Origin: Novosphingobium sp.
GTDB taxonomy: Bacteria > Pseudomonadota > Alphaproteobacteria > Sphingomonadales > Sphingomonadaceae
Direction: 5' to 3'
NCBI GenBank assembly: GCA_017744735.1
Contig: JAGIAR010000001.1
Coordinates: 372,001 to 436,000, forward strand
DNA: 64,000 nt
Below are positions 14,309 through 63,926 of the stretch, one piece after another (the stretch's first letter is position 1; every line of letters begins with the position of its first letter). The notes beneath the pieces were generated by a model. The model ran no database searches, had not been told where the DNA came from, and worked only from the letters and a program-made list of their open reading frames with translations. The position numbers and the translations under genes are program-made.

Positions 14309-14364
14309 AAATCCAAAAATCAAACGGCTTGGCTCGAAGGCAAGCGCATTGTAGCCATCGGCCG

Positions 14365-15252: not shown

Positions 15253-15876
15253 TTAGCCGTGACCACCCTCCCCCGCGCTATCACCAGCATGCGAAGCGAC
15301 GGTTTCGCGCTGCTCGATACGGTCGAGGATCTTGCGCCAATCGATCCGGGCCAACGCAATGAGCGCGCCGATCATCGCCAGATGCAGGAGTACCGCCGCC
15401 GGGCGCGACAGACTGTCCTCGAATATCTGCCCGACCGAAGATTCCCTGATCCCCCGCGCGCCCGCCGCGTAGATCGTGTAGGAGACGGCTCGCCCGGCAA
15501 AAAACACCAGCGTGAAGGGCAGAATCCGGACGCCGGCAAGCCCCGCCGCTTCGAACAGTTGCGCGGACGGGACGGGCGAAATGGCGAACAGCGAGAGGGC
15601 GTAAACCCCGTTCCTCGGGTTCCGTTCGAACAGCGCGCGCGCAGCTGCGAGATTTTCGCGGATGCTTCCCGAAATGCGCCGGCCCAGCAGCTTGAAACAC
15701 CAGGCCAGCAGGAAGCGTCCCGAAGCCGCAGCGGCCGCACCGACCAGAATGATCGCAGCGATTCGAAGATCGGTATTGAGTCCATACAGGACGATGATCG
15801 ACCAGGTCGGCGGCCCGAACGCAGGCACCAGGTTCACCCCCAGGACTATCAGGAAGAGAACCAAAAGCGTGTCCAC
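15253..15876 (-). CDS. integral membrane protein, function unknown
   Basis: several hydrophobic helices; LFAISPVPSAQLFEAAGLAGVRILPFTLVFFAGRAVSYTIY. Confidence 0.75.
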   Translation of the reverse strand: MDTLLVLFLIVLGVNLVPAFGPPTWSIIVLYGLNTDLRIAAIILVGAAAAASGRFLLAWCFKLLGRRISGSIRENLAAARALFERNPRNGVYALSLFAISPVPSAQLFEAAGLAGVRILPFTLVFFAGRAVSYTIYAAGARGIRESSVGQIFEDSLSRPAAVLLHLAMIGALIALARIDWRKILDRIEQRETVASHAGDSAGEGGHG

Positions 15877-15949
15877 TGGTCAGCAGCCGGGCGCGCCGGG
15901 CGAAATGCGACGGCTTCGTGCGGACTCGCGCAGAACCGCAGGCGTCCGC

Positions 15950-16930: not shown

Positions 16931-17117
16931 TGTCAGTCCCCACCCGGCGGAAGTTCCTCGGGGCCGCGATCCGGTTCGTCGTAATCGGGCTCGGCTGGTT
17001 CGAACTCCGGCGGGCCGGGAACCGAAGGTTCGGCTGGCGGGGGAGCGGTTTCCGGGGGGCTGCCCGGCTCCAGCCTGTCGGGATGCGGCGGCGGAACACT
17101 GGCCATCGGGCAGCCCC

Positions 17118-42538: not shown

Positions 42539-43248
42539 CGCGGCGCCGCTCCGCTCACAATGTCAAGCGGAGGCAGTTTGTAGCTGCCGTCGAACACCGG
42601 CAGGACGTTGATCGAATCTGTCCTTGCGACACCGCTCGTCCGCCCAGTGGGCCATGCCGCGAGCGAGCCGGTTGTGTAGGAGGCGTGGATCGCACGCGCC
42701 GCTGCGAGGTCGGACCGTCCCGCCACCAGCGTGCGCACCAGCGCCAGCACTTTTGCCGTGGGCGCGGGGATCGCGGTGTCGCCCGCAGGCAGCGCGCCCT
42801 TCCAGCCCGGAGCGGTCACCGCATAGGCGCCCGCTTTCGTGCCGGTGGCGCGCGAGCCGATGTAGGAGAAGCTGTCCCCGTAGGTGTCGAGCGACTGGAT
42901 CGAACAATAGCGATTACGGATCTCGGGCACCGCGATCACCTGTGGCCCCACCGCAAGGTCAAGCCAGGCGAAGCCGTAGAGCGTATCGATGTTCGGCCCC
43001 GCCGCATGGGGCGCAGGTGTCGCAAGATCCGGGCTGAGGTAAAAGGTATTGAACCCGAGACCGGCTTTCTTCGCCAGTTCGCTATAGCGCCCGCTCAGTA
43101 CCAGCGGCACGCCCCGGATGAAGGCGTCCTGTGCCAGCGCGGAGCTGTCGTCGTCCGCGCGGGCGATGGAAGCACGCAGAAGCGAAGCCGCCCCGGCAAC
43201 GCCGGCGGCAGTGAGGAAATCGCGGCGGGACGCAGCGAACTCGGTCAT
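42535..43248 (-). CDS. DUF1254-family protein with Tat-type signal
   Basis: MTEFAASRRDFLTAAGVAGAASLL; AGPNIDTLYGFAWLDLAVGPQVIAVPEIRNRYCSIQSLDTYGDSFSYIGSRATG. Confidence 0.82.
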   Translation of the reverse strand: MTEFAASRRDFLTAAGVAGAASLLRASIARADDDSSALAQDAFIRGVPLVLSGRYSELAKKAGLGFNTFYLSPDLATPAPHAAGPNIDTLYGFAWLDLAVGPQVIAVPEIRNRYCSIQSLDTYGDSFSYIGSRATGTKAGAYAVTAPGWKGALPAGDTAIPAPTAKVLALVRTLVAGRSDLAAARAIHASYTTGSLAAWPTGRTSGVARTDSINVLPVFDGSYKLPPLDIVSGAAPR

Positions 43249-43279
43249 CGGATAATCCTTGCGAAAGGAGATGGCGGCA

Positions 43280-45133: not shown

Positions 45134-45224
45134 GATCGATCCCTGATTTGAGCCTGCTACGGCCGGCCCTTTCCTGCGCGAGAGATGGGCGGCCGGGCGC
45201 AGGTCTCCCGGCCGTCCAGGCGGG

Positions 45225-46178
45225 TCAGGCCGGTTCGTATTCCTTGGCCTTTTCCTTGCGGACCGTGCGGCTGGCGCGCCCGTCGATGCCCACCGGCACG
45301 TCGCCCGCGATAGTCGAGCGGCGCAGCGTGCGGCGCTGGAGCGCGAAGTCGGCGACTGCGCGGTGCTGGGTCGCACGGTTGTCCCAGAACGCCACATCGC
45401 CCGGCTGCCAGCTCCACCGCACGGTGTTCTCGGGCTTGGTGATGTGTTCCTGCAGGATCTGGAACAGGCGGGTCGAATCCGCCTGGTTCAACCCGACGAA
45501 GCGCTTGATGAAGTGGCCGAGCAGCAGGCTGCGCTCGCCCGAGACCGGATGCACGCGGACCACCGGGTGCTCGGTTTCGTACACGGTCGAGGCGAACACG
45601 TTCTTGTGCTGCCTGACCAGGTCCGACGAGGCCTTGGTGTCCGAATTCCCGCTGAGCAGCGCGGCATAGTCGTAATCGTTGCTGTGCACCGCCCAAAGGT
45701 TGTTCACCAGCTGGCGCAGCGGCTCGGGCAACTCGTCATAGGCGGTCACGCCGTTGGCCCACAGCGTGTCGCCGCCGGCTTCGGGGATCGTGATCCCGCG
45801 CAGGATCGAACCCTTCGGATAGGCATCGACGAAGGTGACATCGGTGTGCCAGCTCGAGGCGGCGTAGCCTTCCTTGCTGTCGAGTTCGAGCAGGTACTTC
45901 GAGCCTTCGGCCACCGGCACGGTCGGATGCGCGACCGGATCGCCGAACAGCGCGGTGAAGGCCTCGTGCTCGGCATTGTCGAGATGCTGCTGGCCGCGGA
46001 AGAAGATCACCTTGTGGCGGACGAGTGCGGCTTCGATCGCTTGGACGGTGGGGCCGTCGAGATCCCCGGAAAGCACGATGCCGCGGATCTCCGCGCCGAT
46101 GCGGCCCGCGATCGGGCGGATGTCGAGCGGCGAGTTGGGGTCCTTGGCGTTGGGATAGGTGTCGACGAGAGTAGCCAT
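45225..46178 (-). CDS. TauD/TfdA-family 2-oxoglutarate dioxygenase (AtsK-like)
   Basis: AEIRGIVLSGDLD...HKVIFFRGQQHLDNAEHEAF...SSWHTDVTFVDAYPKGSIL...GDVAFWDNRATQHRAVAD. Confidence 0.9.
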   Translation of the reverse strand: MATLVDTYPNAKDPNSPLDIRPIAGRIGAEIRGIVLSGDLDGPTVQAIEAALVRHKVIFFRGQQHLDNAEHEAFTALFGDPVAHPTVPVAEGSKYLLELDSKEGYAASSWHTDVTFVDAYPKGSILRGITIPEAGGDTLWANGVTAYDELPEPLRQLVNNLWAVHSNDYDYAALLSGNSDTKASSDLVRQHKNVFASTVYETEHPVVRVHPVSGERSLLLGHFIKRFVGLNQADSTRLFQILQEHITKPENTVRWSWQPGDVAFWDNRATQHRAVADFALQRRTLRRSTIAGDVPVGIDGRASRTVRKEKAKEYEPA

Positions 46179-46214
46179 CGGAATTTTCCTTTCAGGGACT
46201 GGGACGGACGGGGG

Positions 46215-47564
46215 CTATTCGGCCGGGACGAGCAGCGCGGGGGCGGCGTCGAGACGGCGGCGAATTTCGGAATGCGCGGCTTCGTCCAGCGGGAAGCGGG
46301 CAAGCAGCGCGGCGGAAATGGTGTGCGCGATCGCCGGACAGAGGGCGAAGACGTAGAGCAGCCCATCGAGGACCTCGGGCGAATTGGCCGCTTTGGGATC
46401 GAAGCCGAGCCAGCCGACCAGCGGTAGGGCCACGCCGACGGCGACCGCGCCAGCCGATTTGCTGGCGATCGAGAAGACCGAGAAATACAGCCCGGTACGC
46501 TCCTCACCGGTTTCGAGCCGGTGCTTGTCGGCAACGTCGGCGACAATCGACCGGAGCATCAGATTGCCCGATCCTTGGGCGAGGCCTTGGGCAAAGGTCA
46601 GCGCCAGCAGCAGGCCGAAGCGTTCGGGCGTGACCAGCAGCAGGCCGAGGTTAATCACGACCTGGACCGTTTCCCCGAGCACCGCCGCGCGGTGCTTGCC
46701 GAGCTTGAGGCCGATGCGCAGCCAGATCGGCCCGGCAAGGATGCCGAATACGAACTGGAACAGGAAGAGCCCGGCAGCCCAGTCGGGCCGACCCATGTAG
46801 AAGGTGGCGAAGAAGACGATCAGCGACGAGCGGATCGTCTGGCCGAGCGTGACCGCGAAATCCGAGGCGAGCACCTTGAGCAGCAGCGGATTGGCGAAGA
46901 CCGCGGTCAGCGACTGGCGCAGCGAGAAGCGTTCGGGCGCTTCGAGCGGCGGCTCTTCGGGGAAAGTGGTGAGCGAGATCAGCGCCGCCGGAACCGTGGT
47001 CGCGAGCACCAGCCCGCCCATCAGCGCCATCTGCAGCCGCCCGTCTCCGGGACGCAGTTGATCGGCAATGGTCGGCAGCACCAGAGTGAGGAACAGCGAG
47101 CTTGCCGCAACCACCGACTGGTAGGTCGCAACCCTTGTGCGCTCATGATACTGACCGGAAATCTCCCCCGACCAGGCGAGGAACGGAATCTGCACCGCAG
47201 TCCAGCCGAGGTGGAACGCGAACAGCACCGCCGCGAGATAAGCTGGAGTGACCGCGACCGGCGGGAAGAACAGGAAGAACGCCGCCAGGGTGAAAAGCAG
47301 GCTCCCCCCCGCTATCCATGGCTTGCGCCGGCCGATGCGGCTGCGCGTGCGGTCGCTGAGCGCCCCGATCAACGGGTCGAGCAGCGTGCCCCATAGGCTC
47401 CCGGCAAGGAACACCGCGCCGATCGTGCCGAGCGAAAGCCCGAAATCGCGCGCGAAGATCGCCGGGAGGTTAACCGCAAGCGGCAGGGTTGCCGCATAGG
47501 CCGGGAGCGCGATGGCCGAGAAGCGGGTGAGCTTCCAGCCGGATAACGAGGGGGTGCCAGTCAT
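46215..47564 (-). CDS. MFS transporter (GPH/MelB-like)
   Basis: GSLWGTLLDPLIGALSDRTRSRIGRRKPWIAGGSLLFTLAAFFLFFPP. Confidence 0.87.
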   Translation of the reverse strand: MTGTPSLSGWKLTRFSAIALPAYAATLPLAVNLPAIFARDFGLSLGTIGAVFLAGSLWGTLLDPLIGALSDRTRSRIGRRKPWIAGGSLLFTLAAFFLFFPPVAVTPAYLAAVLFAFHLGWTAVQIPFLAWSGEISGQYHERTRVATYQSVVAASSLFLTLVLPTIADQLRPGDGRLQMALMGGLVLATTVPAALISLTTFPEEPPLEAPERFSLRQSLTAVFANPLLLKVLASDFAVTLGQTIRSSLIVFFATFYMGRPDWAAGLFLFQFVFGILAGPIWLRIGLKLGKHRAAVLGETVQVVINLGLLLVTPERFGLLLALTFAQGLAQGSGNLMLRSIVADVADKHRLETGEERTGLYFSVFSIASKSAGAVAVGVALPLVGWLGFDPKAANSPEVLDGLLYVFALCPAIAHTISAALLARFPLDEAAHSEIRRRLDAAPALLVPAE

Positions 47565-47574
47565 CGTCCGGACC

Positions 47575-49995
47575 TCACAGCTTGGTCCGCACGGTGACGC
47601 CGTAGGTCGCGGGATCGCCGAGCTGGCCGGTTACCGCGCCGGTGTTGGCGACCGAGAGCGTGGTGAAATAGTCCTTGTCGAACAGGTTCTTGGCCCAGAC
47701 CGACACGTCCCACTTGCGGTCCGCGCTCCGGATACCGATGCGGGCGTTGGCGATGCCATAGCCCGGCACCTCGGCCCAAGCCGAGTTCGACGACGAGGTG
47801 TTGAACCGGGAACGGTGCGACCAGTCGGCATTAGCGTAGAGCTTGAGCCCGCCGCTGCCGAGTTCGGTCTGCCCTTCGGCGCCGAGGGCGTAGGTGAATT
47901 TCGGGACGCCGGGCAAAGGTGCACCCGAAAGATCCTGGATCGACCCGAGATCGAGCCGCTCCACCGCCTGCGGGGCATTGGTGTATTGGACGTATTTCGC
48001 GTCAGTGTAGGCGAGTGATCCGTAAAAGCTGAAATGATCGCTCGCCCGGAAGTTCAGATCCGCTTCCGCCCCGCGCGAGCGGACCTTCGGGATATTGGTG
48101 ATGTACTGGAAATAGGTGTTCGAGGTCTGCGAGACCTCGGTCACCGTGGTCTGATAATCGGTGACCTCGGTCCAGAACAGCGCACCGTTGAAGGTCAGCC
48201 GGCGGTCGAACAGCTGCGACTTGAAGCCGGCCTCGTAATTGTCGACCTTTTCGGGTGCGACGTCCATGCTGTCGGCAGAGAAGCCAGCCGGCAGGTTCGT
48301 GAGATTCAGCCCGCCGGACTTGTTGCCGCGCGAGTAGCTTGCATAGAGCAGCGCGTCGGGCGTGACCTTCCAAGCCAGTGAGATCAGCCCGCCGAGGCTG
48401 TCGTTCTTGGTGCTGGTCGAATAGGAGGTCACCGGGTTGAAGCTGTTGCGCAGCGCGATCGCGGTGGCCCGCTGCGCCGGACTCAGGCCTGCAAGATCGT
48501 CGCCGCCCGTCCACCACTGCTCGTAGTCCCCGGTCTTGGTCTCGTGGGTGAAACGCAGGCCGCCGGTCAGCGTCAGATTGTCGGCAATCTTCCAGTCGAC
48601 CTGGCCGAAACCGGCGAGGCTCTTGGTGATCGGATCCGAATAGGACTGCGCGGCGAAGCCGTTGAGCGCCGCATTCGAGACCACCGGATCGACCACCGGC
48701 ACATTCCACAGCGCGGCGTCCTCGCCATAGCCGAACGAACCGTAGCCGCGCACCGTCTGCCAGAAGTAATAGGCGCCGACGACATAGCTCAGTGGCCCGT
48801 CGGTCTCGGACGCGAGGCGCACTTCCTGCGAGAACTGCCGCTGGTGGTTCTGTTGCTGGGCGACGGTGATGATCGGCAGCGAGGTGCCGTCGCCGTCGTT
48901 GGCCGGATACCAGTCCCACCAGCGATAGGCCGTGATCGAGGTCAGCTTGGCAAAGCCGAGGTTCCAGTCGAGCTGGCCCGAAACGCCGTAGCCCTCCATG
49001 TTCGCCTGGTAATGCCCGTCGGCTTCGCCCTCGCGCGCGAAGGGATCGAATGCGGGCAGCATGTAATCTGGAAAGCGTGCCGCGCGGACAAGGAAGTTGT
49101 TCGGGATCGCGGTGCCGTCGGAATAGGTCTCGTGGTGATCGACGAACACCGTCAGCGCGTATTTCTGCTTCTGCTTCGAATAGTCGCCGATCAGCTTGAT
49201 ATCGATGTCGCTAGTCGGGGTGATCAGCACCTGCCCGCGGACCGAAACGTTGTGATAATCCTGCGCGTCGGTGTGGGTGGTAGTGTTGGTCAGGAAGCCG
49301 TCGCGGTCGGTGTAGGCACCGCTGACGCGGACCGCGACGAGATCGGGTACGATCGCGCCCGATGCAGACGCGCGCACCTGCACGTAATCGTAATTGCCGT
49401 AGCTTGCCTCGGCCGAGAATTCGGGTGTGAAGCTGGGCGCCTTGCTGGTGATGTTCACCACGCCCGCGGTGGTGTTCTTTCCGAACAGTGTGCCCTGGGG
49501 CCCGCGCAGCACCTCGATCCGGTCGAGATCGACCAGGTCGAACTGCGAGAGGCCGACGCGGCCGTAATAGACGTTGTCGATATAGAAGCCGACGCCGTTC
49601 TCGAGCCCGTCGTTAGTCAGCGCGATATTGCTGCCGAGGCCGCGGATGTTGACGTTGGTGTTGCGCGGATTGAAGCTGAACACCTGCAGGCTGGGCACCT
49701 GCTGCTGGATCTGGAGCAGTGTGTAATCGCCCTTGCGCTCGAGCGCCTCGGCACTGACTACGCTGAGCGCGATCGGCACGTCCTGCGCGCTCTCGTCGCG
49801 GCGGCGGGCCGAGGTGACGACGATCTCGTTTTCGGCAAGGCCGGCCGCGACCGAGACATCGGCGGTGGCGACAGAAGCGGCGCCGGAGGCGGCTTCGTCC
49901 GCTGCCAAGGCAGGAGCAGCGGCGAGCAGCCCGGCCAGCGCCGAAGTGGCGAGCGCTGCGCGGCGGAAAACGATGGAACGGTTGAAACTGGACAT
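47575..49995 (-). CDS. TonB-dependent receptor
   Basis: ENEIVVTSARRRDESAQDVPIALSVVSAEAL plug; RIEVLRGPQGTLFGKNTTAGVVNITSK. Confidence 0.93.
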   Translation of the reverse strand: MSSFNRSIVFRRAALATSALAGLLAAAPALAADEAASGAASVATADVSVAAGLAENEIVVTSARRRDESAQDVPIALSVVSAEALERKGDYTLLQIQQQVPSLQVFSFNPRNTNVNIRGLGSNIALTNDGLENGVGFYIDNVYYGRVGLSQFDLVDLDRIEVLRGPQGTLFGKNTTAGVVNITSKAPSFTPEFSAEASYGNYDYVQVRASASGAIVPDLVAVRVSGAYTDRDGFLTNTTTHTDAQDYHNVSVRGQVLITPTSDIDIKLIGDYSKQKQKYALTVFVDHHETYSDGTAIPNNFLVRAARFPDYMLPAFDPFAREGEADGHYQANMEGYGVSGQLDWNLGFAKLTSITAYRWWDWYPANDGDGTSLPIITVAQQQNHQRQFSQEVRLASETDGPLSYVVGAYYFWQTVRGYGSFGYGEDAALWNVPVVDPVVSNAALNGFAAQSYSDPITKSLAGFGQVDWKIADNLTLTGGLRFTHETKTGDYEQWWTGGDDLAGLSPAQRATAIALRNSFNPVTSYSTSTKNDSLGGLISLAWKVTPDALLYASYSRGNKSGGLNLTNLPAGFSADSMDVAPEKVDNYEAGFKSQLFDRRLTFNGALFWTEVTDYQTTVTEVSQTSNTYFQYITNIPKVRSRGAEADLNFRASDHFSFYGSLAYTDAKYVQYTNAPQAVERLDLGSIQDLSGAPLPGVPKFTYALGAEGQTELGSGGLKLYANADWSHRSRFNTSSSNSAWAEVPGYGIANARIGIRSADRKWDVSVWAKNLFDKDYFTTLSVANTGAVTGQLGDPATYGVTVRTKL

Positions 49996-50808: not shown

Positions 50809-51594
50809 CTATCCCGGGAGATAGCCGGCCGGATAATCGAACTCACCGAGAAAGGTCACCGTGGCTCCCACGCGGCGATCAAGGACGCCGAACGGGCCGT
50901 AGCCGAACAGACGGCCGACGTTACGCATCTGCTGCAGGTCGATCAGCAGGGTCAGCTCCATCGGCGGTAGGTCGCGGGTGGAGATCAGATAAAGTTCCTC
51001 GGCGATCTTCCACATCGTAACGGCCTCTATGCCTACTTCGTATTTGAGCGCCTCAGGGCTCAGCAGCCACTGCCAGATGATCGTCTTCGAATTCACGTAA
51101 ATATGCTCGAGGGCGGCCTCGGGGCTGTATTCGCAATAGAGTCGCTTGCCGAGCAACTCGCGCGTTTCCGCGACCGGCTCATAGCTGCCCGCCATGCCGA
51201 CGATGCGCCCGGGGCGCAGCATCTCGTAGAGATCGGTGCCACCACCCTCGCCAGTCACCTCGTTCCAGACCGTCAGCGCACGCCCGGCGTTGAAATCGAT
51301 CACATTGGAAAAAGCGCAGCGCCCGTCGTCGGCGGCGAAATCGAGAAAGAAGATGCCGGGCCGAATCTCGACCGCGTCCCAGGAATCCTCGCCTGCCTGC
51401 ACCCTGCCCGTCGGTTCGCGCGCTTCCCAGCGGAGGGCCTCTTCACCCACTTCCATTACCAGGCCCGCACCGTCGTCGAATGCCAGCGCGATCGAACGGC
51501 CGGCAAGGCCGCGGGTCGAAGGCAAGCGATTGGCAATAAGGTCCATGTCGCGGCGCATCGGCGGCACGGGAACGATCGGCTTCAACTGCACCAT
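50809..51594 (-). CDS. MoaF-like protein
   Basis: LAGRSIALAFDDGAGLVMEVGEEALRWEA...DAVEIRPGIFFLDFAADDGRCAFSNVIDFNAGRALTVWNEV. Confidence 0.7.
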   Translation of the reverse strand: MVQLKPIVPVPPMRRDMDLIANRLPSTRGLAGRSIALAFDDGAGLVMEVGEEALRWEAREPTGRVQAGEDSWDAVEIRPGIFFLDFAADDGRCAFSNVIDFNAGRALTVWNEVTGEGGGTDLYEMLRPGRIVGMAGSYEPVAETRELLGKRLYCEYSPEAALEHIYVNSKTIIWQWLLSPEALKYEVGIEAVTMWKIAEELYLISTRDLPPMELTLLIDLQQMRNVGRLFGYGPFGVLDRRVGATVTFLGEFDYPAGYLPG

Positions 51595-51628
51595 GATCCT
51601 GTCCTCTGCTTGGGAATTGCGCGCGGGG

Positions 51629-52477
51629 TCACCAGCCGCTGCCGCTGCCGAAGGGCAGCGGTGCAGTGCCGAGCGCCCAGATCTCCTCGATCCGCCCGTC
51701 GACAATCTTGAACACTTCGGTGAACACCATGCTGCCGGGCCATTTGATAGGAATGTCGCCCGCCGCCCGCTTGAGATCGCCGGGATGGTCGAACACCAAA
51801 TGGCAGACCGCCAGCCCCCGTTCCTCGTCGACGATCGGATAGCGCCGGGCGCGCAAGGCCTCGATATAGGCATAATGCCCAGCGGTGATCTGTTCCGACA
51901 CGGTGAGTGCGCGGTGCTCTTCGCCTGGGATCAACTGATCCGGATCGTCGAGACTGTCGACCACCCCGTTGACCAGCCGGCGGCAATTGTCGTTTACTGG
52001 CACGATGTCGCCCTGTGAAAGCTCGATCGCGTCGAAATAGAGATCCACCACATCGATCATCTCTTGGCGGCCACGCCGCTGGGTCGGTTCGATCACGCGG
52101 TGAAAGTCGCCCGGATCCTCGGCCAGCGCTTCTGGCTTGAAGAACGCACCGACTCGGGTGACGATCGTCTCGCCCTCGGCGATAGTCGTGCCTTCAATCT
52201 TGAGCCGGATGGAAACGATCGCCTCGCCGCCCATCTCGTCCATCACATCCCAATATTCGACCTGGCCTGCCGTTTCATCGACGAAGTAATGCGATGTGCC
52301 CTTGAGCCCGCGGATTGTGCGCCAGATGCCACAGCCAAGCGGGAGTTCCTGCGTATCCTCGGTCGAGCGCAGATGCGGCGCCAGCCGCAACCGGCCCGGC
52401 GCGCGATCGACGAGCGCCGCGAGATATTCGTCCATCGCGCCAATCAAGCGGGCGCGCTCGCCGGCAGAAGCGGTCAT
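51629..52477 (-). CDS. double NTF2/SnoaL-like protein, paralog A
   Basis: two half-domains; shares TEDTQELPLGCGIWRTI, EALRARRYPIVDEERGLAVCHLVFDHPGD, LPFGSGSGW with paralog B. Confidence 0.72.
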   Translation of the reverse strand: MTASAGERARLIGAMDEYLAALVDRAPGRLRLAPHLRSTEDTQELPLGCGIWRTIRGLKGTSHYFVDETAGQVEYWDVMDEMGGEAIVSIRLKIEGTTIAEGETIVTRVGAFFKPEALAEDPGDFHRVIEPTQRRGRQEMIDVVDLYFDAIELSQGDIVPVNDNCRRLVNGVVDSLDDPDQLIPGEEHRALTVSEQITAGHYAYIEALRARRYPIVDEERGLAVCHLVFDHPGDLKRAAGDIPIKWPGSMVFTEVFKIVDGRIEEIWALGTAPLPFGSGSGW

Positions 52478-53340
52478 CGCGCGCTCCATCCCGACCCGAT
52501 GCCATAGGGCAGCGCGGTGCCGATCGCCCACACTTCCTCCAGAATCCCGTCGCGAATCTTGAACGCCTCGAACACGATCATCGTGTTGGGCGTATGGTAG
52601 ACCAATTCGCCGTCGGAACGCTGACGGTCGCCCGGGTGATCGAACAGCAGGTGGCAGATCACCAGCCCTCGCTCCTCGTCGACAATCGGATAGCGCCGGT
52701 CGCGCAGCGCCTCGATGTAGGCGTAATTGCCGGCGTCCATCTGCTCTTCAACTCCGAGCGCGCGGTGGGCATCGAGCGGGTCGAGGAGATCGGCGTCCAT
52801 CACGCTGTCGAGCGTGCCGTTCACCAGCCGGCGGCAATCGCCGATCACCGGCAGCCGGCCGCCGTCGCTCTGTTCTATCGCATCGAAGTAGAGATCGACA
52901 ATCGCGACCAGCTCGACGCGAGGACGGCGCTCGGCTTCAGGAATCGGTGCGTGGAACCCCGGTTGAGCATCGCTGACGACTTCGGGTTCGAAGAATTTTC
53001 CGGGCGAACCGCGCACCGCGAGCGTCTCGATCTCGGTAATCGTCGTGCCTTCGACGCGCAAACGCACGCCAAAAATCGTAGGGGAACCGTTCTCGTCGAC
53101 CGTGCCCCAATATTCCACCTCGCCCGCAACGGGATCGACGAACACGTGCCCACCCGGCCAGTGCGCGCGGATCGTCCGCCACAGGCCGGTGCCGACCGGC
53201 AACGCAATGGTGTTTTCCGTGTTGCGCACGACGGGCGCGATCCTGACCGCCCCCACATCGTGCCGGACCAGCGCGTCGAGATAGTCGGCCATCACGCGGG
53301 CCAGCCGCTCGCGCTCCAGTTCCAGCCGCGTCGTCGTCAT
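52474..53340 (-). CDS. double NTF2/SnoaL-like protein, paralog B
   Basis: RNTENTIALPVGTGLWRTI, EALRDRRYPIVDEERGLVICHLLFDHPGD, LPYGIGSGW; ATGA-type overlap with paralog A. Confidence 0.72.
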   Translation of the reverse strand: MTTTRLELERERLARVMADYLDALVRHDVGAVRIAPVVRNTENTIALPVGTGLWRTIRAHWPGGHVFVDPVAGEVEYWGTVDENGSPTIFGVRLRVEGTTITEIETLAVRGSPGKFFEPEVVSDAQPGFHAPIPEAERRPRVELVAIVDLYFDAIEQSDGGRLPVIGDCRRLVNGTLDSVMDADLLDPLDAHRALGVEEQMDAGNYAYIEALRDRRYPIVDEERGLVICHLLFDHPGDRQRSDGELVYHTPNTMIVFEAFKIRDGILEEVWAIGTALPYGIGSGWSAR

Positions 53341-53413
53341 TTTTTTCAATCTCCACGTACCACCGCACTGCGGCGCTCAAATGCAGCGTAATGCCGCGTT
53401 CATTGACTCGCTA

Positions 53414-53433
53414 ACAGTCCCATTCGGGACAGT
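53414..53433. promoter_or_regulatory. palindromic operator 1
   Basis: ACAGTCCCATTCGGGACAGT, 75 bp upstream of paralog B. Confidence 0.6.
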
Positions 53434-53492
53434 CAATCGCCATCCGCCGTTTTGTTCGATTGACATTCCGGAGCGAGAAGATACCCACATAC

Positions 53493-53510
53493 TAGTCCCA
53501 CATGGGATTA
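53493..53510. promoter_or_regulatory. palindromic operator 2
   Basis: TAGTCCCACATGGGATTA, about 20 bp upstream of paralog C ATG. Confidence 0.6.
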
Positions 53511-53531
53511 TATTGAGATGCAGGAGACCCG

Positions 53532-54443
53532 ATGGGACAGCTTTCGACAACCGGCGCGCTCGATCGGCAAGCCCTGATCGACGCCGCCGAAACTTATCTC
53601 GACGCGCTCGCGGCGAACAACGTTGCCCAAGTGCCATTCGCGCTCGCCGCGCGCTTCACCGAGAACAGCCAGGAACTTGAGATCGGCGACGGTTTCTGGG
53701 CCACCTGCAGCGGCCGGGGGGTTTACAAACAGTTCGCCGCCGATCCGGTGACGCAGCAGGTCGGCTTTATCGGGGTGATGCGGGAGAGCGGGCGCGAGGT
53801 GATCTTCGGCCTGCGCCTGCGGATTGAGGACGGCCTGGTGAGCGAAGCCGAAACAGTCGTCTCGCGCGACCCGATCCTGTTCTACAAGGACGGCCCGGCC
53901 AAGCTGGAAGCGCGCGGCGAGCCGATGCCGCTCTGGCGGGAGCGCGTACCCGAAAGCGAACGCGCGAACCGGGCGGAACTGGCGGCCACCGCAGATGCCT
54001 ATTTCGAGGCGCTGCAGCTCAACGACGGCACCAAAGTCCCGCCAATTGCGGCCGAATGCGACCGGATGGACAATGGCGTAATGGCGACCCACGCGCCAGA
54101 ATTCGACGAACCGGGAGATCCGCCGTTCTATGCGCTCGGCCCCGCCGAGCAGCTTGCCACCGGATATTTCGGCTTCGTGACCCGCATCCGCGACCGGCGC
54201 TATCCGATTATCGACGAGGAATTCGGCGTTGTCTTCAGCCTCTCGTTCCTCGACCATTCGGGCGCCGTTCGCGAGATCGCCCTGACCGACGGACGCACCG
54301 TACCGATCGGGGTGGATCGGCCGTTCGCATGGCAGATAATGGAAGTGTTCAAGATCACCGGCGGGCTGATCCGGCAGATCGAGGTGCTGCTCAACCTGTC
54401 GTTCTATGGCATGCGGCCCAACTGGCCGGCAACGGCGGTGTAA
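53532..54443 (+). CDS. double NTF2/SnoaL-like protein, paralog C
   Basis: RFTENSQELEIGDGFWATCSGRG; RIRDRRYPIIDEEFGVVFSLSFLDHSG; divergent from paralogs A and B. Confidence 0.72.
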   Translation: MGQLSTTGALDRQALIDAAETYLDALAANNVAQVPFALAARFTENSQELEIGDGFWATCSGRGVYKQFAADPVTQQVGFIGVMRESGREVIFGLRLRIEDGLVSEAETVVSRDPILFYKDGPAKLEARGEPMPLWRERVPESERANRAELAATADAYFEALQLNDGTKVPPIAAECDRMDNGVMATHAPEFDEPGDPPFYALGPAEQLATGYFGFVTRIRDRRYPIIDEEFGVVFSLSFLDHSGAVREIALTDGRTVPIGVDRPFAWQIMEVFKITGGLIRQIEVLLNLSFYGMRPNWPATAV

Positions 54444-54491: not shown

Positions 54492-56864
54492 TCAGAAACT
54501 GCGCCGCGCGGTCACACCCCATTCGCGCGGGGGAGCAACACTAAGTTCGCCAGTGCCGAAGCCATCGATCAGGTCGAGCGCACCGGTCGAATAAACCTTG
54601 TTGGTCAAATTGGTCCCGAACACCGCGAACGACCAGTCGCCCCGTGGTGCGAGGAAGGTGACGCGGGCATTCACCAGCGCATAGCCGTCCTGCGACGAGA
54701 ACTCGGTGTTGGACGAGTTGAAATAGACCTTCGACTGGTAGACGACGTCCGCGCGCGGAGTGATTGTCCAGCCCGCGGCGGTGCGAATTTCGTACTGCGC
54801 GCCGGCCGAGAAGGTGAATTTGGGCGTGCGCGCCGGCACCGTATCCAGCGTCGGTCCGCCTCCCACCCCGGCGGCGGAGCCGAGATCGTCGTTTTTGTAA
54901 TGCAGATATCCGGCATTCGCATTGAGTTCGAAGCCAACGACCGACCGCACTTCCAGTTCGAACTCGGCACCTTCCATATGCGCCTTGCCGACATTCTGGG
55001 TGACGGTCGCGATAATGTTGTTGTCGTCGACATAGAGCGACGGCAGCTGTATGCCCTTGTATTTAGAATAGAACACCGCGCCGTTGAGCCGGACCCTCCG
55101 GTCGAACAGGCTCGACTTGAAGCCCGCTTCATAGCTGGTCAGGCTTTCCGGGCCGAACGACTTGATCTGGGTCTGGTCGTTGGGGCGCGGACTAAACCCT
55201 CCGCCGCGGAAGCCGGTCGCGACCTGGATGTATGTCATCACTTCGGGCGTCCATTGATAGGCGATGTTGGCCATCGGCGACCATTTCTTGTCGCGCTCCG
55301 ACAGGTCGGTGACCGGGAACAGCAACTCGTCGTCGATGATCGACCGGCGTAGGATCGAGATGCTCTTTTTCTCATCGGTATATCGGATCCCCCCCGTCAC
55401 GCTCAGCTTGTCGGTCGCGTGATAGACCGCATGGACGAATACCGCCTTGTTCGACTGGTCCTGCTCGTCATCAAAATAGAACGCGATGATCGTCGGCGGG
55501 TAGACTTCGGCGGTGCCGAAATCGCCGTCATGGCCGTCGTAATAATAACCGCCGACGGTCCATTCGATCGGTCCATTATCGCCCGAGAGGGTCAGTTCCT
55601 GGCTGAACTGGCGATGTGGATCGTGCTCATCGGTCAGGTTGATTGCCAGCGGCGAGCCGCTCGAATTGACCCCGAAATCGGCGCGGTAATGCCGGTAGGC
55701 GGTGATCGACTTGAGACTGATATTATCGCCCAGCTTCCAGTCGAGCGTGCCGCTGACACCATATTGCTTCACATCGTTGCGGTTCGGATAATCGAGCCCC
55801 GTGATGTCGGAATGGAAGTTGTTGTAGCTCGAATAAGGGCTGTTCGTGACGAACCGGTCGTCATACGGAATGCCGTACAAGGGAATCGCGACCGTATCGT
55901 TCCACACCGGCGTATAGCCGGCGCCCTCGCCGCTGGTCGCGATCACCGCCAGCTTGTCGGCCGGCTGCTTCTGGTGCTGGTTCTCGTAATCCGCGACCAC
56001 GTTAAATTCGAGATTGTCGGTGGCGATGAAGCGGATCGCACCGCGCATGGTCTGGATGTTGACATCACCTTCGGTGTCGACCTGGCAGTCCTTCGCGGTG
56101 GTGGTCGGCATCAGCGAGCCGGCGAGATCAGGATGCGCGCAGGCGAAATCATAGACCTTGAAGTAGCCGTCGCGGGTGTTCGACGAACCGGACAGGCGCA
56201 CAAACACGCGATCCGGCACTAGGGTCGCGTCGAAGCTGGCCTTGACCGCACGGCGATCGAATCGGCCCATGGTCGCCTCGATGTAGCCTCCTCCATTGCC
56301 GTCGGGTTTCTTTGAAATCAGGTGGATCGCCCCGCCGATCGCGTTCTGCCCGAACAGCGTGCCCTGCGGGCCGCGCAGCACTTCAACCTGTTCGAGATCG
56401 AGCAGATCCATCGCCGCGCCGATCGGACGCGCCTCGTAGACTCCGTCGATATACATCGCGACGCCCGGTTCGAACGCAAGCGAGAAGTCGTTCATGCCGA
56501 TGCCGCGAATGGTCGCGAAGGCGGCCGGGCCATAGCCCGCCCCGCCCGGATTGATGGTGAGGTTCGGCGCCTGACCGCTGAGGTCGGTGACATTGGTCAC
56601 GCTGCGCGCTGTGAGATCGTCACCGCTGAGAGCGGTAATCGCAAGCGGCGTGGCTTGGAGGTTCTCCTTGCGGTACCGCGCGGTGACCACGATCTCCTCG
56701 ATATGATCGGTGGATTGCGCGCCGGCAGGGCCAGCGTTCGCGGCAACATCCGCCGGCGCCGTGTCTTGAGCGTAGGCCTGCGAACCTGCAGCAATGGCCA
56801 GCGCGCTTCCGCACATTGTGAGGGCAAGCTTCCATCCCCGGGCAACGCTTATCGGTCTTCTCAT
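54492..56864 (-). CDS. TonB-dependent receptor
   Basis: EEIVVTARYRKENLQATPLAITALSGDDL; QVEVLRGPQGTLFGQNAIGGAIHLISKKPDG. Confidence 0.93.
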   Translation of the reverse strand: MRRPISVARGWKLALTMCGSALAIAAGSQAYAQDTAPADVAANAGPAGAQSTDHIEEIVVTARYRKENLQATPLAITALSGDDLTARSVTNVTDLSGQAPNLTINPGGAGYGPAAFATIRGIGMNDFSLAFEPGVAMYIDGVYEARPIGAAMDLLDLEQVEVLRGPQGTLFGQNAIGGAIHLISKKPDGNGGGYIEATMGRFDRRAVKASFDATLVPDRVFVRLSGSSNTRDGYFKVYDFACAHPDLAGSLMPTTTAKDCQVDTEGDVNIQTMRGAIRFIATDNLEFNVVADYENQHQKQPADKLAVIATSGEGAGYTPVWNDTVAIPLYGIPYDDRFVTNSPYSSYNNFHSDITGLDYPNRNDVKQYGVSGTLDWKLGDNISLKSITAYRHYRADFGVNSSGSPLAINLTDEHDPHRQFSQELTLSGDNGPIEWTVGGYYYDGHDGDFGTAEVYPPTIIAFYFDDEQDQSNKAVFVHAVYHATDKLSVTGGIRYTDEKKSISILRRSIIDDELLFPVTDLSERDKKWSPMANIAYQWTPEVMTYIQVATGFRGGGFSPRPNDQTQIKSFGPESLTSYEAGFKSSLFDRRVRLNGAVFYSKYKGIQLPSLYVDDNNIIATVTQNVGKAHMEGAEFELEVRSVVGFELNANAGYLHYKNDDLGSAAGVGGGPTLDTVPARTPKFTFSAGAQYEIRTAAGWTITPRADVVYQSKVYFNSSNTEFSSQDGYALVNARVTFLAPRGDWSFAVFGTNLTNKVYSTGALDLIDGFGTGELSVAPPREWGVTARRSF

Positions 56865-57080: not shown

Positions 57081-58412
57081 TCAGTCGGGCAAGAGCGTGC
57101 TGTCGGCCGGAAACGCCGCGCCCAGCGGCGCATCCGGATGAACCGGCGGACGCAAAGCGAGCAGCAGCACCGCGCCGGCCGCGCAGCCGATACCGACCCC
57201 GTAGAGGACCGGTGTAAATGTGCCGAACCGGTCGTAGTAGGCTCCGGCAAGCACCGGCGCGGCCGCGCCGAGGGTCGATTGCACCGCCGAAGCGAGGCCG
57301 TATACCGAGGCGTAAGCACGCGCTCCGAACCAATTGCCGAGGAGCGTCACCATGCAGACCATCGAACTTGATCCGCCGATGCCCAGCAGAGCTACGCTGG
57401 CATAAAGCAGCCACGGGTGGTTCGCATGGGCGAACAGCACGATGCCGGTCGCCTGGCAGGCCATCGCCGCGACCCACAAATACTGGGGATCTATTCGGTC
57501 GCCGAGATAGCCTGCAGCCATATGGGCAGCGAGGCCGATCGCGACCGCGGCCGACAGCAAATAGGCGGCCGTTTGCAGCGAATAGCCGAGATCGCGGATC
57601 TGCAGCGCGCCTTGGGCGAGAAAGATCACATAGGCGCCGCTGAACCCGACCGCGCATAACATTAACAGCCAAAATGCCGGTGACCGCAACACCTGCCCGG
57701 AGGTCCAGTCTTGGGTGGTAAGATGCACCCGCCGGCGGACATTATGCGCTTCCGCCGGTACGCCTTCCTCCAGCGCGCTTTCCGCGCCGCCATCGGGGCT
57801 CTGCCCGATATCTTCCGGACGATCCTTCACGAAGAGCAGGCTGATCGCTGAGGCCAGCAACGCGAAGACGGCGATAAGCCACCAGCCGTACCGCCAATCG
57901 CCATTGGCGGCGGCGACCACTTTTTCTAGCAGAGGGGCGCTCACAACTCCGCCGATCGTGCCACCCGACAGCACCACCGCCAGCGCGAGCGAGCGGCGCC
58001 GCACGAACCAAAAGGTGACGCCGGCCTGCGCTGGGATCGGCCCCCCGATCGCGTCCGAGGTGCCGATCGCGATCCCCGCCACCAGCAACAGCATCACCGG
58101 GGTGGTAACGATCGTCGCCATCGCGGCGGCGGCGGCCGCCAGCAGGAAATTTCCCAGGGCCAGCGTGTTGCGAATGCCCACCTTTGCGATCAACTTCGCG
58201 ACCAGCGGCCCGGGCAGACCGGTCATCGCCATAAACAGCGCATAAGCGACCGCCAGCGTCGTCCGGCTGAAATGAAACTCATCCGCCATATACACGTTGA
58301 GGAAGCTCAACCCGTACATCGGCAGGGCCAGGTTAACCGCCATGATCGCCCAGAAGGCCGCGACCAGCCGCCAGCCGTAAAAACCTTTCCGCAGCGCGCG
58401 CTCGCCGTTCAT
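57081..58412 (-). CDS. MFS transporter
   Basis: GWRLVAAFWAIMAVNLALPMYGLSFLNVYMADEFHFSRTTLAVAYALFMAMTGLPGPLVAKLI. Confidence 0.87.
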   Translation of the reverse strand: MNGERALRKGFYGWRLVAAFWAIMAVNLALPMYGLSFLNVYMADEFHFSRTTLAVAYALFMAMTGLPGPLVAKLIAKVGIRNTLALGNFLLAAAAAAMATIVTTPVMLLLVAGIAIGTSDAIGGPIPAQAGVTFWFVRRRSLALAVVLSGGTIGGVVSAPLLEKVVAAANGDWRYGWWLIAVFALLASAISLLFVKDRPEDIGQSPDGGAESALEEGVPAEAHNVRRRVHLTTQDWTSGQVLRSPAFWLLMLCAVGFSGAYVIFLAQGALQIRDLGYSLQTAAYLLSAAVAIGLAAHMAAGYLGDRIDPQYLWVAAMACQATGIVLFAHANHPWLLYASVALLGIGGSSSMVCMVTLLGNWFGARAYASVYGLASAVQSTLGAAAPVLAGAYYDRFGTFTPVLYGVGIGCAAGAVLLLALRPPVHPDAPLGAAFPADSTLLPD

Positions 58413-58724: not shown

Positions 58725-59237
58725 ATGTCGCGCAGCGAAGACGAGAACCCGACCAGCGAAGGCCTGCTGCCGGAGGATCTGCGGCTCAGGTTAATGGCGG
58801 AGCCCGACGAATGGATTGGCTTTCGGATGATCCTGATCGGCAATTATTTCTCTGCGCCGCTGTTCGCCCGCCTGCAGAAAGACTACGGATTGCTGCGTGA
58901 CGAATTCGTGGTACTCGCCAATCTGCAGAATTATGGACCGCTGACCGCTAACGTCATCTGCGGCCTCAGCGGAAGGCCCAAGAACAGCATCAGCCGCGGC
59001 GTCATCAAGCTGACCAAGGAGAAGATGGTCGTCGCCCGGACCGACCCGGGCGATCGCCGGAACGTCATTCTGACAATCACTGACAAAGGCCGCAGCCTGT
59101 TCAACGAAGTCATCGAGCTGTTTCGCGAACGCGAAAAGCTGTTATTCGGCGCATTGACCGCGCGCGAGACCACAACGCTCGACCGGCTGCTGGCGAAGAT
59201 CCTGCTCAATTGGCACGGCGGCTCGCAAAATATGTGA
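58725..59237 (+). CDS. MarR-family transcriptional regulator
   Basis: TANVICGLSGRPKNSISRGVIKLTKEKMVVARTDPGDRRNVILTITDKGRSLFNEV. Confidence 0.87.
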   Translation: MSRSEDENPTSEGLLPEDLRLRLMAEPDEWIGFRMILIGNYFSAPLFARLQKDYGLLRDEFVVLANLQNYGPLTANVICGLSGRPKNSISRGVIKLTKEKMVVARTDPGDRRNVILTITDKGRSLFNEVIELFREREKLLFGALTARETTTLDRLLAKILLNWHGGSQNM

Positions 59238-59640: not shown

Positions 59641-59798
59641 ATCGATCGACGATCTGGTCGCGCGCGACATGCTTTCCTCCGAACAGGACCCATCCGCGAT
59701 CCCTTAGCTAACGATCCGGCCCCCTGCTGTCACGCCTGTCGATTTCGTGCATAAGGGAGCCGATGGCTCGCGACGATCGGGCCCGCGGGGGTGAGGAC

Positions 59799-61100
59799 AT
59801 GGCAAGCGACAAGCCGGAAAGCACGGCGCTGCTGCGGCGAAGAGTCGAGCGCAAACTGGCCCTTTGGCTGATCTTCCCGATCGCGCTGATCACCTTCGTC
59901 AACTCCATCGACCGAGTGAATATAAGCTACGCAGGTAGCGCGATGTCTGCCGACCTTGGGCTTTCCCCGGGACAATTCGGGCAAGGCGTCAGCCTGTTCT
60001 TTGTCGCCTACCTGTTGTTCCAATATCCCCATGTTCGCCTGCTTAAGACTTTGGGGATCAAGCTCTGGATTCTGCTTTCGATGCTCCTCTGGGCCTGCTC
60101 CGGGGTGTGGATGGCCTATGTCGGTAGTCCAGGTGAATTCTATGCCGCGCGCTTCCTGCTGGGAATGGCGGAGGCTGGTTTCGCCCCGGGGATGACCTGG
60201 GTGATTTCGCGGTGGGCGCCGCCGTCGATCAGGGCACGCGCGCTCGCGGGGGCACTGGTCGCCGTTCCGCTATCGATGGTGCTTGGCGGTCCGCTATGCG
60301 GCTGGCTGTTGGGGATCGCCAATCCGCTGGGGATGGATGCGTGGCGCTTCATGTTCTTGATGCTGGCGGTTCCAAACGTTGTGCTGGCGGTTGGCGCAGC
60401 GCTTTACCTTGTTGATCTCCCAGCCAGGGCATCGTGGTTGTCGGAGGATGAGAAAGACTGGCTCGCCGAAGGGGCCGGGGAGAACGAGATCCGGGACACC
60501 GCTGCGCAGTCATTGCGCGGGATAGCCCGCGATCCTTGGCTGTGGCGATGCTCGGTCGCGTGGCTTTTGATCATGACCGGATCCTACGCCCTGGCGTTCT
60601 GGCTGCCACAGATTGTCCGAAAGCTCGACGTAGGCAGCAGCGAATTGATGATCGGTACGGTCAGCGCCCTGCCCCTGCTGGGTCTTGCTATCGGCCTTAT
60701 CGCGAACAGCCGACGCTCGGACCGGAAAGGAGAACGCCCACTCCACACTGGCATCCCTGCGGCGGCGGCCGGCGTGGCAATGCTTGCGGCGGCCTTTCTC
60801 CAGTCGAGTTGGCCCGTCCTCGCGCTTCTGTGCATTGCCGGGTTTGGCATCGGGGCAGCGCAGGGTGTGTTTTGGGCAGTGCCGGGCTCCGTGCGGTTGG
60901 GCGGAGGCCAGGTACCGGCAGGAGCAATCGCGCTGATCAGCATGTTCGGAACCGCAGGCGGGATCATCGGGCCGTGGCTGACGGGACTGCTGGTAACCCG
61001 GACCAACAGCTTTTCGCTTGCGATCGGCCTGCTGGCGCTGCTTCTTATCCTCGCCTTGCCGGTGCTGAGCCTGAAACCCGCAAGGGCGGCGGAGAATTGA
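59799..61100 (+). CDS. MFS transporter, ACS (anion:cation symporter) type
   Basis: LIFPIALITFVNSIDRVNISYAGSAMSADLGLSPGQFGQGVSLFFVAYLLFQ; start may be 59763. Confidence 0.87.
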   Translation: MASDKPESTALLRRRVERKLALWLIFPIALITFVNSIDRVNISYAGSAMSADLGLSPGQFGQGVSLFFVAYLLFQYPHVRLLKTLGIKLWILLSMLLWACSGVWMAYVGSPGEFYAARFLLGMAEAGFAPGMTWVISRWAPPSIRARALAGALVAVPLSMVLGGPLCGWLLGIANPLGMDAWRFMFLMLAVPNVVLAVGAALYLVDLPARASWLSEDEKDWLAEGAGENEIRDTAAQSLRGIARDPWLWRCSVAWLLIMTGSYALAFWLPQIVRKLDVGSSELMIGTVSALPLLGLAIGLIANSRRSDRKGERPLHTGIPAAAAGVAMLAAAFLQSSWPVLALLCIAGFGIGAAQGVFWAVPGSVRLGGGQVPAGAIALISMFGTAGGIIGPWLTGLLVTRTNSFSLAIGLLALLLILALPVLSLKPARAAEN

Positions 61101-61126: not shown

Positions 61127-61609
61127 ATGGAGGAGCCTTTGGAAAAACCTGCGCTGGAACTGGCGTTCTGCATCCGGTTGGATTTCGCCGACGGACCGCG
61201 TCTGCGCTTTAATCCGGCCCAAATGGATTTCACCCGCGGTTTCGTGGCCGTCACCGGCGGTGAAATCAACGGTGCCCGACTTTCGGGCCGCGTCGTCCCT
61301 TACTCAGGTGGAGACTGGCCGCGCATCTGGGCCAGCGGGCTGATCGAGTTCGAGGCCCACTACATGCTTGAAGCTCACGACGGCACCCCGATCTACATCC
61401 ATAATCGCGGCATAGCCTATTCGAACCCGGAAACGCTGGCGCGCATCGAGGCCGGCGAGAGCGTTGCGCGGGATGACAGCTATTGCCGGATCACGCCCCG
61501 CTTCGAGGCTCCCAGCGGACCGCACGATTGGCTGAATCGCACCATTTTCGTGGGCACTGCGGAACGACGCGGAGCTTCCACCTTCTTCGACTATTATGCG
61601 GTGACCTGA
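61127..61609 (+). CDS. DUF3237-family protein
   Basis: GFVAVTGGEINGARLSGRVVPYSGGDWPRIWASGLIEFEAHYMLEAHDGTPIYIHNRGI...FVGTAERRG. Confidence 0.82.
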   Translation: MEEPLEKPALELAFCIRLDFADGPRLRFNPAQMDFTRGFVAVTGGEINGARLSGRVVPYSGGDWPRIWASGLIEFEAHYMLEAHDGTPIYIHNRGIAYSNPETLARIEAGESVARDDSYCRITPRFEAPSGPHDWLNRTIFVGTAERRGASTFFDYYAVT

Positions 61610-61612
61610 AAG

Positions 61613-62128
61613 ATGCCCCAGTTCTTGTCGGTTGCCGACCAACTTTCTATCCGCGATGTCATCGCGCTCTATGCATGGACGCTGGACACAGGCGATGTCG
61701 AGGGGTTCGTTTCCTGCTTTTGCAGCGACGGCGCCCTAATCTGGGACGCGTTCGAAGAGCCAATGCGCTGGGAAGGGACGGAGGCGCTGCGGCACTTCGC
61801 GACGTATTTCCGTAACCTTCCGACGTCCGCCGGCCGCCAGCATCATGTAACCAATATCCTGGTCGAGCCATGTGAGGATGGGGCCCGGAGCAAGTCCTAT
61901 GCCGCCGTTGCGTTGCGGCAGGGCGACGGCCCTCATCTGCTCAACGTGATGGGTTACTATGAAGACCGGTTTCGTCTTGAGGACGGCCGCTGGCGATTGG
62001 CCGAACGGTTCATCCGGGACTGGTCCGGGCCGGTCCTTGCAAACTTCGCCGGCCAGACCGGCGAGCGCATTGCGCGGCCGATGCCCGCGCCGCTGGCCGG
62101 CGCGATTCACGAGCCTCGCTCCCGCTAG
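61613..62128 (+). CDS. NTF2/SnoaL-like small protein
   Basis: LSVADQLSIRDVIALYAWTLDTGDVEGFVSCFCSDGALIWDAFEEPMRWEGTEALRHF. Confidence 0.82.
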   Translation: MPQFLSVADQLSIRDVIALYAWTLDTGDVEGFVSCFCSDGALIWDAFEEPMRWEGTEALRHFATYFRNLPTSAGRQHHVTNILVEPCEDGARSKSYAAVALRQGDGPHLLNVMGYYEDRFRLEDGRWRLAERFIRDWSGPVLANFAGQTGERIARPMPAPLAGAIHEPRSR

Positions 62129-62913
62129 AAGGTCGAAGTGGTCGCGCCGCCGTCGATAACCAGGCTTTGGCCGGTGATGTAATTGGCGAATTCGCTACAG
62201 AACATCGCGACGAACGCCCCGACATCGTCGCAATCGCCGAAGCGCTCGCTGGCGATGCGCCACTCGCGGGAGAATTCGGCGACCTCCTGCTCGTAAGTCG
62301 TACCCTTCGCCTGTGCGCGCTCGCCGAACTGTTTTTCGACGAAGGCGCTGTGATGCATGCCGGGCAGCAGATTGTTGATGACGACATTGTGCTTCGCCAC
62401 CACTTTCGAAACCGCGACGGTGTAGTTCGCGAGCGCAGCCCGGGTACTGCCCGAAAGTACGCGAATTTCGCCCGGATACTTCGCCGCGACTGTCGCGATG
62501 TTGACGATCCTTCCCCATTTGCGCTCGACCATCCCGTCGAGGACGGATCGCATGAACTCGATCGGCGAAAGCAGCGAGATCTCGATCGCTTCCCGCCAAT
62601 CCTCCCGGGTGATTGCCCGATAATCGGGCGTCATCGGCGGCGGAGCACACGTGCCGACGAGGATGTCGGGATCTGGGCAAGCTGCCAGGATGCGCTCCCG
62701 GCCGTCCTCGCGGCTGTGGTCGGCACAAACCGGGGTCACGGCCGCGCCGGTTTCTTCCGCGATCTCACGGCAGGCGCGCACCAGGCGATCTTCGGTGCGG
62801 GCGGAGACGAACACCTCGACTCCTTCCCGCGCCAACGCCAATACGGCGCTGCGGCCCATGCCGGTGCTCCCACCATTGACGATGGCCTTACGCCCCCTGA
62901 TTCCGAGATCCAT
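62125..62913 (-). CDS. SDR-family oxidoreductase
   Basis: GRKAIVNGGSTGMGRSAVLALAREGVEVFVSART; C-terminal GQSLVIDGGATTS. Confidence 0.88.
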   Translation of the reverse strand: MDLGIRGRKAIVNGGSTGMGRSAVLALAREGVEVFVSARTEDRLVRACREIAEETGAAVTPVCADHSREDGRERILAACPDPDILVGTCAPPPMTPDYRAITREDWREAIEISLLSPIEFMRSVLDGMVERKWGRIVNIATVAAKYPGEIRVLSGSTRAALANYTVAVSKVVAKHNVVINNLLPGMHHSAFVEKQFGERAQAKGTTYEQEVAEFSREWRIASERFGDCDDVGAFVAMFCSEFANYITGQSLVIDGGATTSTF

Positions 62914-63530: not shown

Positions 63531-63926
63531 CTAGGCCGTGCTCGCCCAGGAACTCTTCCACATGGCGCAAATCTTGTTCCCGTCAGGATCGCGCAGATAC
63601 GCAATATATGGCTGGCCGAAGCTTTCAGGACGGAGGCCGGGCGCGCCATCGTCGCTGCCTCCGTTGGCTACGCCCGCACGGTGAAACGCATCGACCTGTT
63701 CGGTACTGACCGCACGAAACCCGATCGTGCCGCCGTTGGCGCAACTGGCCGGTTCTCCATTGCGCGGCGCGCGGACGGCGAAGCCCTGCTCGCCGGAGCG
63801 GTAGGACAGCACCGGCACGTCGGGAGAGGCGGAATTGGCGAGGCCGAGCGCACCCATCACCGCGTCGTAGAAGACCCGCGCGCGCTCTATGTCGTTGGTG
63901 CCGACAAAGACGTGATTGAACAGCAT
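63531..63926 (-). CDS. VOC/glyoxalase-family protein
   Basis: MLFNHVFVGTNDIERARVFYDAVMGALGL...AYLRDPDGNKICAMW. Confidence 0.9.
   Translation of the reverse strand: MLFNHVFVGTNDIERARVFYDAVMGALGLANSASPDVPVLSYRSGEQGFAVRAPRNGEPASCANGGTIGFRAVSTEQVDAFHRAGVANGGSDDGAPGLRPESFGQPYIAYLRDPDGNKICAMWKSSWASTA

Follow-up and report, generated by a model that had tools for sequence, protein, structure and literature searches.

Three related genes, designated here A, B, and C, lie in the analyzed stretch of a Novosphingobium sp. genome (64,000 nucleotides; assembly GCA_017744735.1, contig JAGIAR010000001.1, positions 372,001 to 436,000; hereafter, the window). Their products are members of an unnamed family of proteins of about 290 amino acids that arose by duplication and fusion of an NTF2 domain. 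Because members of this family are recurrently clustered with enzymes that cleave aromatic dimers, they are probably missing enzymes of lignin-dimer breakdown. Judging from sequence and genomic context, we would give slightly better than even chances to the interpretation that the tandem-NTF2 proteins, including those of the A/B/C cluster, serve as lyases, dehydratases, or isomerases in the catabolism of lignin-type aromatic dimers. The core of the locus is organized as follows.

50809..51594, minus strand: MoaF, 261 amino acids, matching both the N-terminal and the C-terminal MoaF domain of Pfam; co-oriented with A and downstream of it
51629..52477, minus strand: A, tandem-NTF2 protein, 282 amino acids, tandem duplicate of B (55% identity; sister in the tree, 100/100)
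52474..53340, minus strand: B, tandem-NTF2 protein, 288 amino acids, without a visible signal peptide; leads the putative B-A-MoaF operon
53532..54443, plus strand: C, tandem-NTF2 protein, 303 amino acids, divergent from B; 53% identical to an ortholog in genome G146

All three open reading frames (ORFs) are present at these coordinates; A and B lie on the minus strand and C on the plus strand. A and B overlap by 4 bp, with the start of A inside the end of B, and a gap of 34 bp separates the end of A from the start of MoaF. Thus, B-A-MoaF reads as a single operon, and the three genes are probably co-transcribed. B and C are divergently oriented and separated by an intergenic gap of 191 bp. A scan for promoters and terminators yielded signal at chance level.

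An earlier note, made from the letters of the window alone, described the three ORFs as related and each protein as two SnoaL/NTF2 halves in tandem. Both statements hold. Pairwise identity is 55% between A and B and 34% between C and B, and each protein matches the family profile over its full length with E<1e-100. A profile comparison by HHalign of the N-half with the C-half of the 107-sequence alignment gave a probability of 98% (E 2e-13), and thus the tandem-NTF2 protein is an internal duplication. In the AlphaFold models, B (predicted local distance difference test score, pLDDT, 94.5; predicted template modeling score, pTM, 0.93) and C (pLDDT 94.8, pTM 0.92) form two alpha+beta cones. Both halves of each protein have the N-terminal helix followed by a curved beta sheet that is characteristic of the NTF2/SnoaL fold, as seen in the models and in the top Foldseek matches. 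Single halves were matched to limonene-1,2-epoxide hydrolase, the isomerases Trt14, AusH, and NsrQ, AclR, and designed NTF2 proteins. The natural proteins resemble each half in fold (target-normalized TM about 0.5-0.6) but are single-domain, with 9-19% identity and no sequence-level relation detected. The query-normalized TM was at most 0.33 among the matches listed for B and C, and therefore no solved chain among them shares the two-domain arrangement. The best Foldseek match of C by E-value is the MonBI-MonBII polyether epoxide hydrolase complex (9kw8), aligned over two NTF2-like units; the query TM of 0.30 and the root-mean-square deviation of 17 imply that the two domains are arranged differently.

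The note's failure to recognize a characterized family was borne out. Library searches found no Pfam or NCBIfam match for A, B, or C, which rules out direct membership, and no named Pfam SnoaL family scored above the cut-off for any of them. SnoaL_2 was reached by 3 of 107 relatives, with the best E of 0.006. Pfam searches of A, B, C, and their relatives gave no membership in SnoaL_4 (PF13577), and the MoaF Pfam domains were found in 50809-51594 only, not in A, B, or C. The PDB sequence search produced weak matches only, the best being a designed NTF2 protein (E 0.014). One family member is labeled 'hypothetical protein' in a PLSDB record, and the family is not mentioned in the lignin-dimer papers found by literature search. 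A resemblance to fungal secreted DUF8021 proteins is conceivable; none of the papers found mentions it, and it is not counted as evidence.

Conservation extends over both halves. The RRYPI[VI]DEE motif and the TENT/TEN-G.W region pointed out earlier are real and family-wide, as is a C.R..NG motif. Among 104 relatives, residues conserved in at least 85% are E42, N43, G50, G52, W54, D69, R93, E105, and R110 in the first half; and R138, R141, Y151, C169, R171, E173, N174, G175, R215, R216, D221, E258, F260, E271, P278, and Y279 in the second half. They include polar residues in both halves (E42, N43, R93, and E105; N174, R216, D221, E258, and E271). The family is likely to be enzymatic, and we infer an enzymatic role for A, B, and C as well.

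The substrates are suggested by the neighborhoods of relatives, which narrow the dedicated aromatic-catabolic setting proposed earlier to catabolism of lignin-type dimers. Neighbors were clustered for 80 family loci with flanks of up to 10 kb, and key names were backed by Pfam and PDB searches. A pyrroloquinoline quinone (PQQ) alcohol dehydrogenase is present near the family in 29 loci, a lignostilbene dioxygenase in 19, a cluster of SnoaL_4 proteins similar to LdpA in 13 (tested members match 8abt), a VAO/PCMH flavoprotein in 11, a cytochrome in 10, and a DUF3237 protein also in 10. MFS, MarR, GMC, aldehyde dehydrogenase, short-chain dehydrogenase/reductase (SDR), and TonB proteins recur as well. 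The neighboring dioxygenases match lignostilbene dioxygenases (6ojr, 6xm6) with E of 1e-104 to 1e-125, whereas their matches to apocarotenoid oxygenases are far weaker (about 1e-17 to 1e-26). In four Acidobacteriota loci the family gene lies 15-28 bp upstream of the lignostilbene dioxygenase, and in two Proteobacteria loci the distances are 100 and 160 bp; in G138 the order is reversed, with the dioxygenase first and the family gene 44 bp away. In Sphingobium and Novosphingobium, SnoaL_4, family, SDR, and MFS genes are packed so tightly that the end of one overlaps the start of the next. At locus L079, two family genes are accompanied by three glutathione S-transferases (GSTs; one with LigF as the best PDB match), two SDRs, TonB, and MFS; this locus (4393-17075) and L114 look like a beta-aryl-ether cluster.

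Known systems offer close parallels. LdpA and PcfL of Novosphingobium are single-domain NTF2 gamma-formaldehyde lyases that feed lignostilbene dioxygenases (PMC11323797, PMC12997858). The tandem-NTF2 family resembles them in its NTF2-type fold, its occurrence in sphingomonads, and the putative combination of a lyase with a lignostilbene dioxygenase, but it differs in its internal duplication and does not match PF13577, in contrast to the LdpA-like SnoaL_4 neighbors, through which, as apparent relatives, LdpA itself was tentatively placed in PF13577. The lariciresinoate-opening enzyme PinX carries a DUF3237 domain and shares 42% and 38% identity with the decarboxylases PhcG and PhcF, respectively (PMC12607616); PinVW is a flavocytochrome, and PinU is a lignostilbene dioxygenase homolog (PMC12607616, PMC12997858, PMC11323797). 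Genes of the same kinds as PinX and PhcF/PhcG (DUF3237), PinVW, PhcC/PhcD, and the lignostilbene dioxygenases surround the family, and the window itself has a DUF3237 gene. PinX, PhcF/PhcG, PinVW, and PhcC/PhcD are partners by neighborhood and not homologs of the tandem-NTF2 proteins. Most partner kinds of the Pin, Phc, and LdpA pathways occur around family members.

By this analogy, the NTF2 pockets would act on the side chain of the dimer by acid-base chemistry that needs no cofactor. Some members may make a stilbene or other alkene, which would then be cut by the lignostilbene dioxygenase, as with LdpA and PcfL. Such a specific alkene-forming step is a tentative suggestion, with chances well short of even, and the exact reaction is guessed from the precedent of these two enzymes. 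For the dioxygenase-linked clade, lignin-type dimers are likely substrates; for A, B, and C, they are plausible ones. More speculatively, and with considerably more doubt than belief on our part, the family could represent another class of cofactor-free NTF2 lyases that evolved separately: tandem-domain enzymes that give stilbene-type products from lignin dimers and work with lignostilbene dioxygenases in Pseudomonadota and Acidobacteriota. With some forms cytoplasmic and others exported, part of dimer cleavage would be periplasmic.

The same neighborhoods can be read differently. The family might act on other aromatic or cyclic substrates, such as steroids, bile acids, or plant phenolic esters, and its link to lignostilbene dioxygenases would then stem from catabolic islands that they share. 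Steroid dehydratases with a SnoaL fold have been described, for example BaiE. The LdpA-like neighbors also match BaiE, weakly; family members occur in Nevskiaceae and Steroidobacteraceae; and a protein of neighbor cluster 33, tannase/feruloyl esterase-like by eye only, recurs near some members. However, the lignostilbene dioxygenase, the VAO/PCMH flavocytochrome, DUF3237, and the L079 GST with LigF as best match all point to phenylpropanoid dimers, and directly adjacent family-dioxygenase pairs are found in two phyla. We consider a different class of substrates quite improbable.

Co-occurrence was also assessed statistically, with tandem copies counted as one cluster and the expectation taken from uniform placement. 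A lignostilbene dioxygenase lies within 10 kb of 18 of 79 family clusters (2.5 expected, P 4e-11). Among 151 genomes of the same GTDB family, it is present in all 24 family-bearing genomes versus 55 of the 127 others; the corresponding counts are 24/24 versus 24/127 for DUF3237 and 9/24 versus 0/127 for MoaF. Several points weigh against lignin-dimer enzymes as the explanation. The tests are uncorrected for phylogeny and catabolic islands, and the P values therefore overstate the surprise; adjacency in two phyla and overlapping operons are stronger evidence. Some operons encode both a SnoaL_4 (LdpA-like) protein and a family member, so the family cannot be a mere substitute for LdpA. The partnership with a lignostilbene dioxygenase, a trait of LdpA and PcfL, holds for the family but not for A, B, and C themselves: no such gene was found beside them in the locus neighborhood, which makes their link to the pathway weaker, and since they also belong to a more divergent clade, their assignment is carried over from relatives. 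One ortholog occupies a conserved chromosomal setting across Erythrobacteraceae without obvious lignin genes, between a zinc-type dehydrogenase on one side and a metallophosphoesterase, a glycosyltransferase, and TrcR on the other (L009 3713-9229; L095, L113, L117, L123-L125, L133, L135, L140). Finally, A and B differ from the rest of the family in having V for E173, V for C197, and W for E271, substitutions that could reflect altered or lost activity.

These substitutions affect positions that about 90% of relatives conserve, and A additionally carries D in place of N43. They also invite the view that A, B, and C are degenerate paralogs or pseudo-enzymes with a structural or regulatory role, and their long branches in the tree are consistent with it. 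Yet the reading frames are intact and most near-invariant residues are kept, with C nearly complete in this respect; moreover, the C ortholog is retained with MoaF and MarR in a second genome, G146. We regard such degeneration as very improbable.

The family is genome-wide and multi-phylum, and not a local oddity. The source genome has 12 genes carrying 14 units, two of the genes being double-length with four halves, and weaker relatives besides. Within its GTDB family, the 24 positive genomes carry up to 15 matches each, whereas a phylum-wide sample gave 5 of 399 genomes, all from the same GTDB family; thus, the distribution is patchy. The first family alignment (A1) was too diverse to serve for the genome scan. 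A scan of GTDB representatives revealed members in Erythrobacter-type bacteria, Sphingobium, Novosphingobium, Caulobacteraceae, Parvularculaceae, Nevskiaceae, and Steroidobacteraceae, and in several Acidobacteriota, many of these genomes being metagenome-assembled. At higher rank, relatives fall in Sphingomonadales, Gammaproteobacteria, and Acidobacteriota; members from Pseudomonadota and Acidobacteriota are interleaved in the maximum-likelihood tree. In this tree, A and B are sisters (100/100), while C is paired with the G146 gene (100/100) in another subclade. The A/B pair is recent, and C is an older, separate lineage. Local amplification, as proposed earlier, stands for A and B; the tree rules out a single amplification as the source of all three genes.

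By a heuristic assignment, a signal peptide seems to be present in about half of the members, and many of these have a CDR.CL motif. Arrays of three to five exported paralogs are interleaved with TonB receptors at L148 (6276-13332) and L151 (11477-19661). Export, the placement of such arrays beside TonB receptors in G146 and G036, and the many copies per genome would suit non-catalytic binding or carrier proteins. Such proteins would bind hydrophobic aromatic oligomers in their two NTF2 pockets, either in the periplasm or in the cytoplasm, and pass them to oxidases, with A, B, and C as cytoplasmic versions. Near-invariant charged residues are present in both halves, a pattern more typical of catalysts, and cytoplasmic members overlap enzyme genes in operons. 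A carrier function thus seems unlikely to us.

The remaining genes of the locus are as follows.

54492..56816, minus strand: TonB-dependent receptor, possible uptake partner (gene call; clusters with TonB receptors of other loci)
57081..58412, minus strand: MFS transporter (gene call; clusters with the MFS protein at locus L088)
58725..59237, plus strand: MarR-type regulator, 57% identical to MarR beside the C ortholog in G146
59763..61100, plus strand: MFS transporter (gene call; neighbor clustering)
61139..61609, plus strand: DUF3237 protein (Pfam), with the same domain as PinX, a decarboxylase of aromatic dimers (PMC12607616)
61613..62128, plus strand: single-domain SnoaL_4 (NTF2) protein (Pfam); relatives found in lignostilbene dioxygenase operons
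62125..62913, minus strand: SDR (Pfam)
63531..63926, minus strand: glyoxalase-fold protein, 53% identical to one near the family-lignostilbene dioxygenase pair in L149

The earlier assignments of MoaF, DUF3237, SnoaL_4, and SDR are supported by Pfam. DUF3237, SnoaL_4, SDR, MarR, MFS, and TonB are shared with the better-defined clusters. In G146, the C ortholog, MoaF (48% identity), and MarR lie within 2.5 kb, and therefore this set is a recurring module; the arrangement rules out that MoaF is not recurrent near the family. MoaF occurs in 9 of the 151 genomes, all nine of which also carry the family. Co-occurrence with MoaF and DUF3237, which the earlier note proposed to look for, is seen in other genomes. 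A, B, C, and MoaF, together with the TonB receptor, MFS, MarR, DUF3237, and SDR proteins, probably provide uptake and side-chain processing of one aromatic substrate.

A family that reaches 15 matches per genome and is tied to lignin-dimer genes thus has no Pfam or NCBIfam entry. If the proposed role is true, its members are candidate genes for dimers that known pathways leave unexplained, and the logic of a lyase with a stilbene-cleaving dioxygenase extends to Acidobacteriota. Core orthologs in cultured Croceibacterium, Sphingobium, and Altererythrobacter-type strains make the proposal directly testable.

Some members have been fused again into proteins of four halves and about 600 amino acids (L014 9497-11278, L012 6050-7864; also L082, L100, L119, L127, and L130). 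PQQ alcohol dehydrogenases usually lie with them, as do several SnoaL_4 (LdpA-like) genes in tandem; at L012 (13313-17658), what looks by eye like a phosphotransferase system (PTS)-type dihydroxyacetone kinase set lies near LdpA-like genes and the four-half member. A double-length MoaF-like protein (about 570 amino acids) also recurs in family-bearing genomes (L152 7687-9914, L154 6502-8205, L155 6176-8389, L147 10984-13175), often with a small twin-arginine (Tat)-signal protein and a cluster-33 gene.

Adjoining the A/B/C cluster in the window is a putative organosulfate-use module (41258-49995, minus strand) with MFS and a TonB receptor and the following genes.

41258-42538, minus strand: radical-SAM/SPASM protein, sulfatase-maturase type
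43280-45133, minus strand: arylsulfatase
45225-46178, minus strand: TauD dioxygenase

This module might feed the A/B/C cluster, which hints at sulfated substrates.

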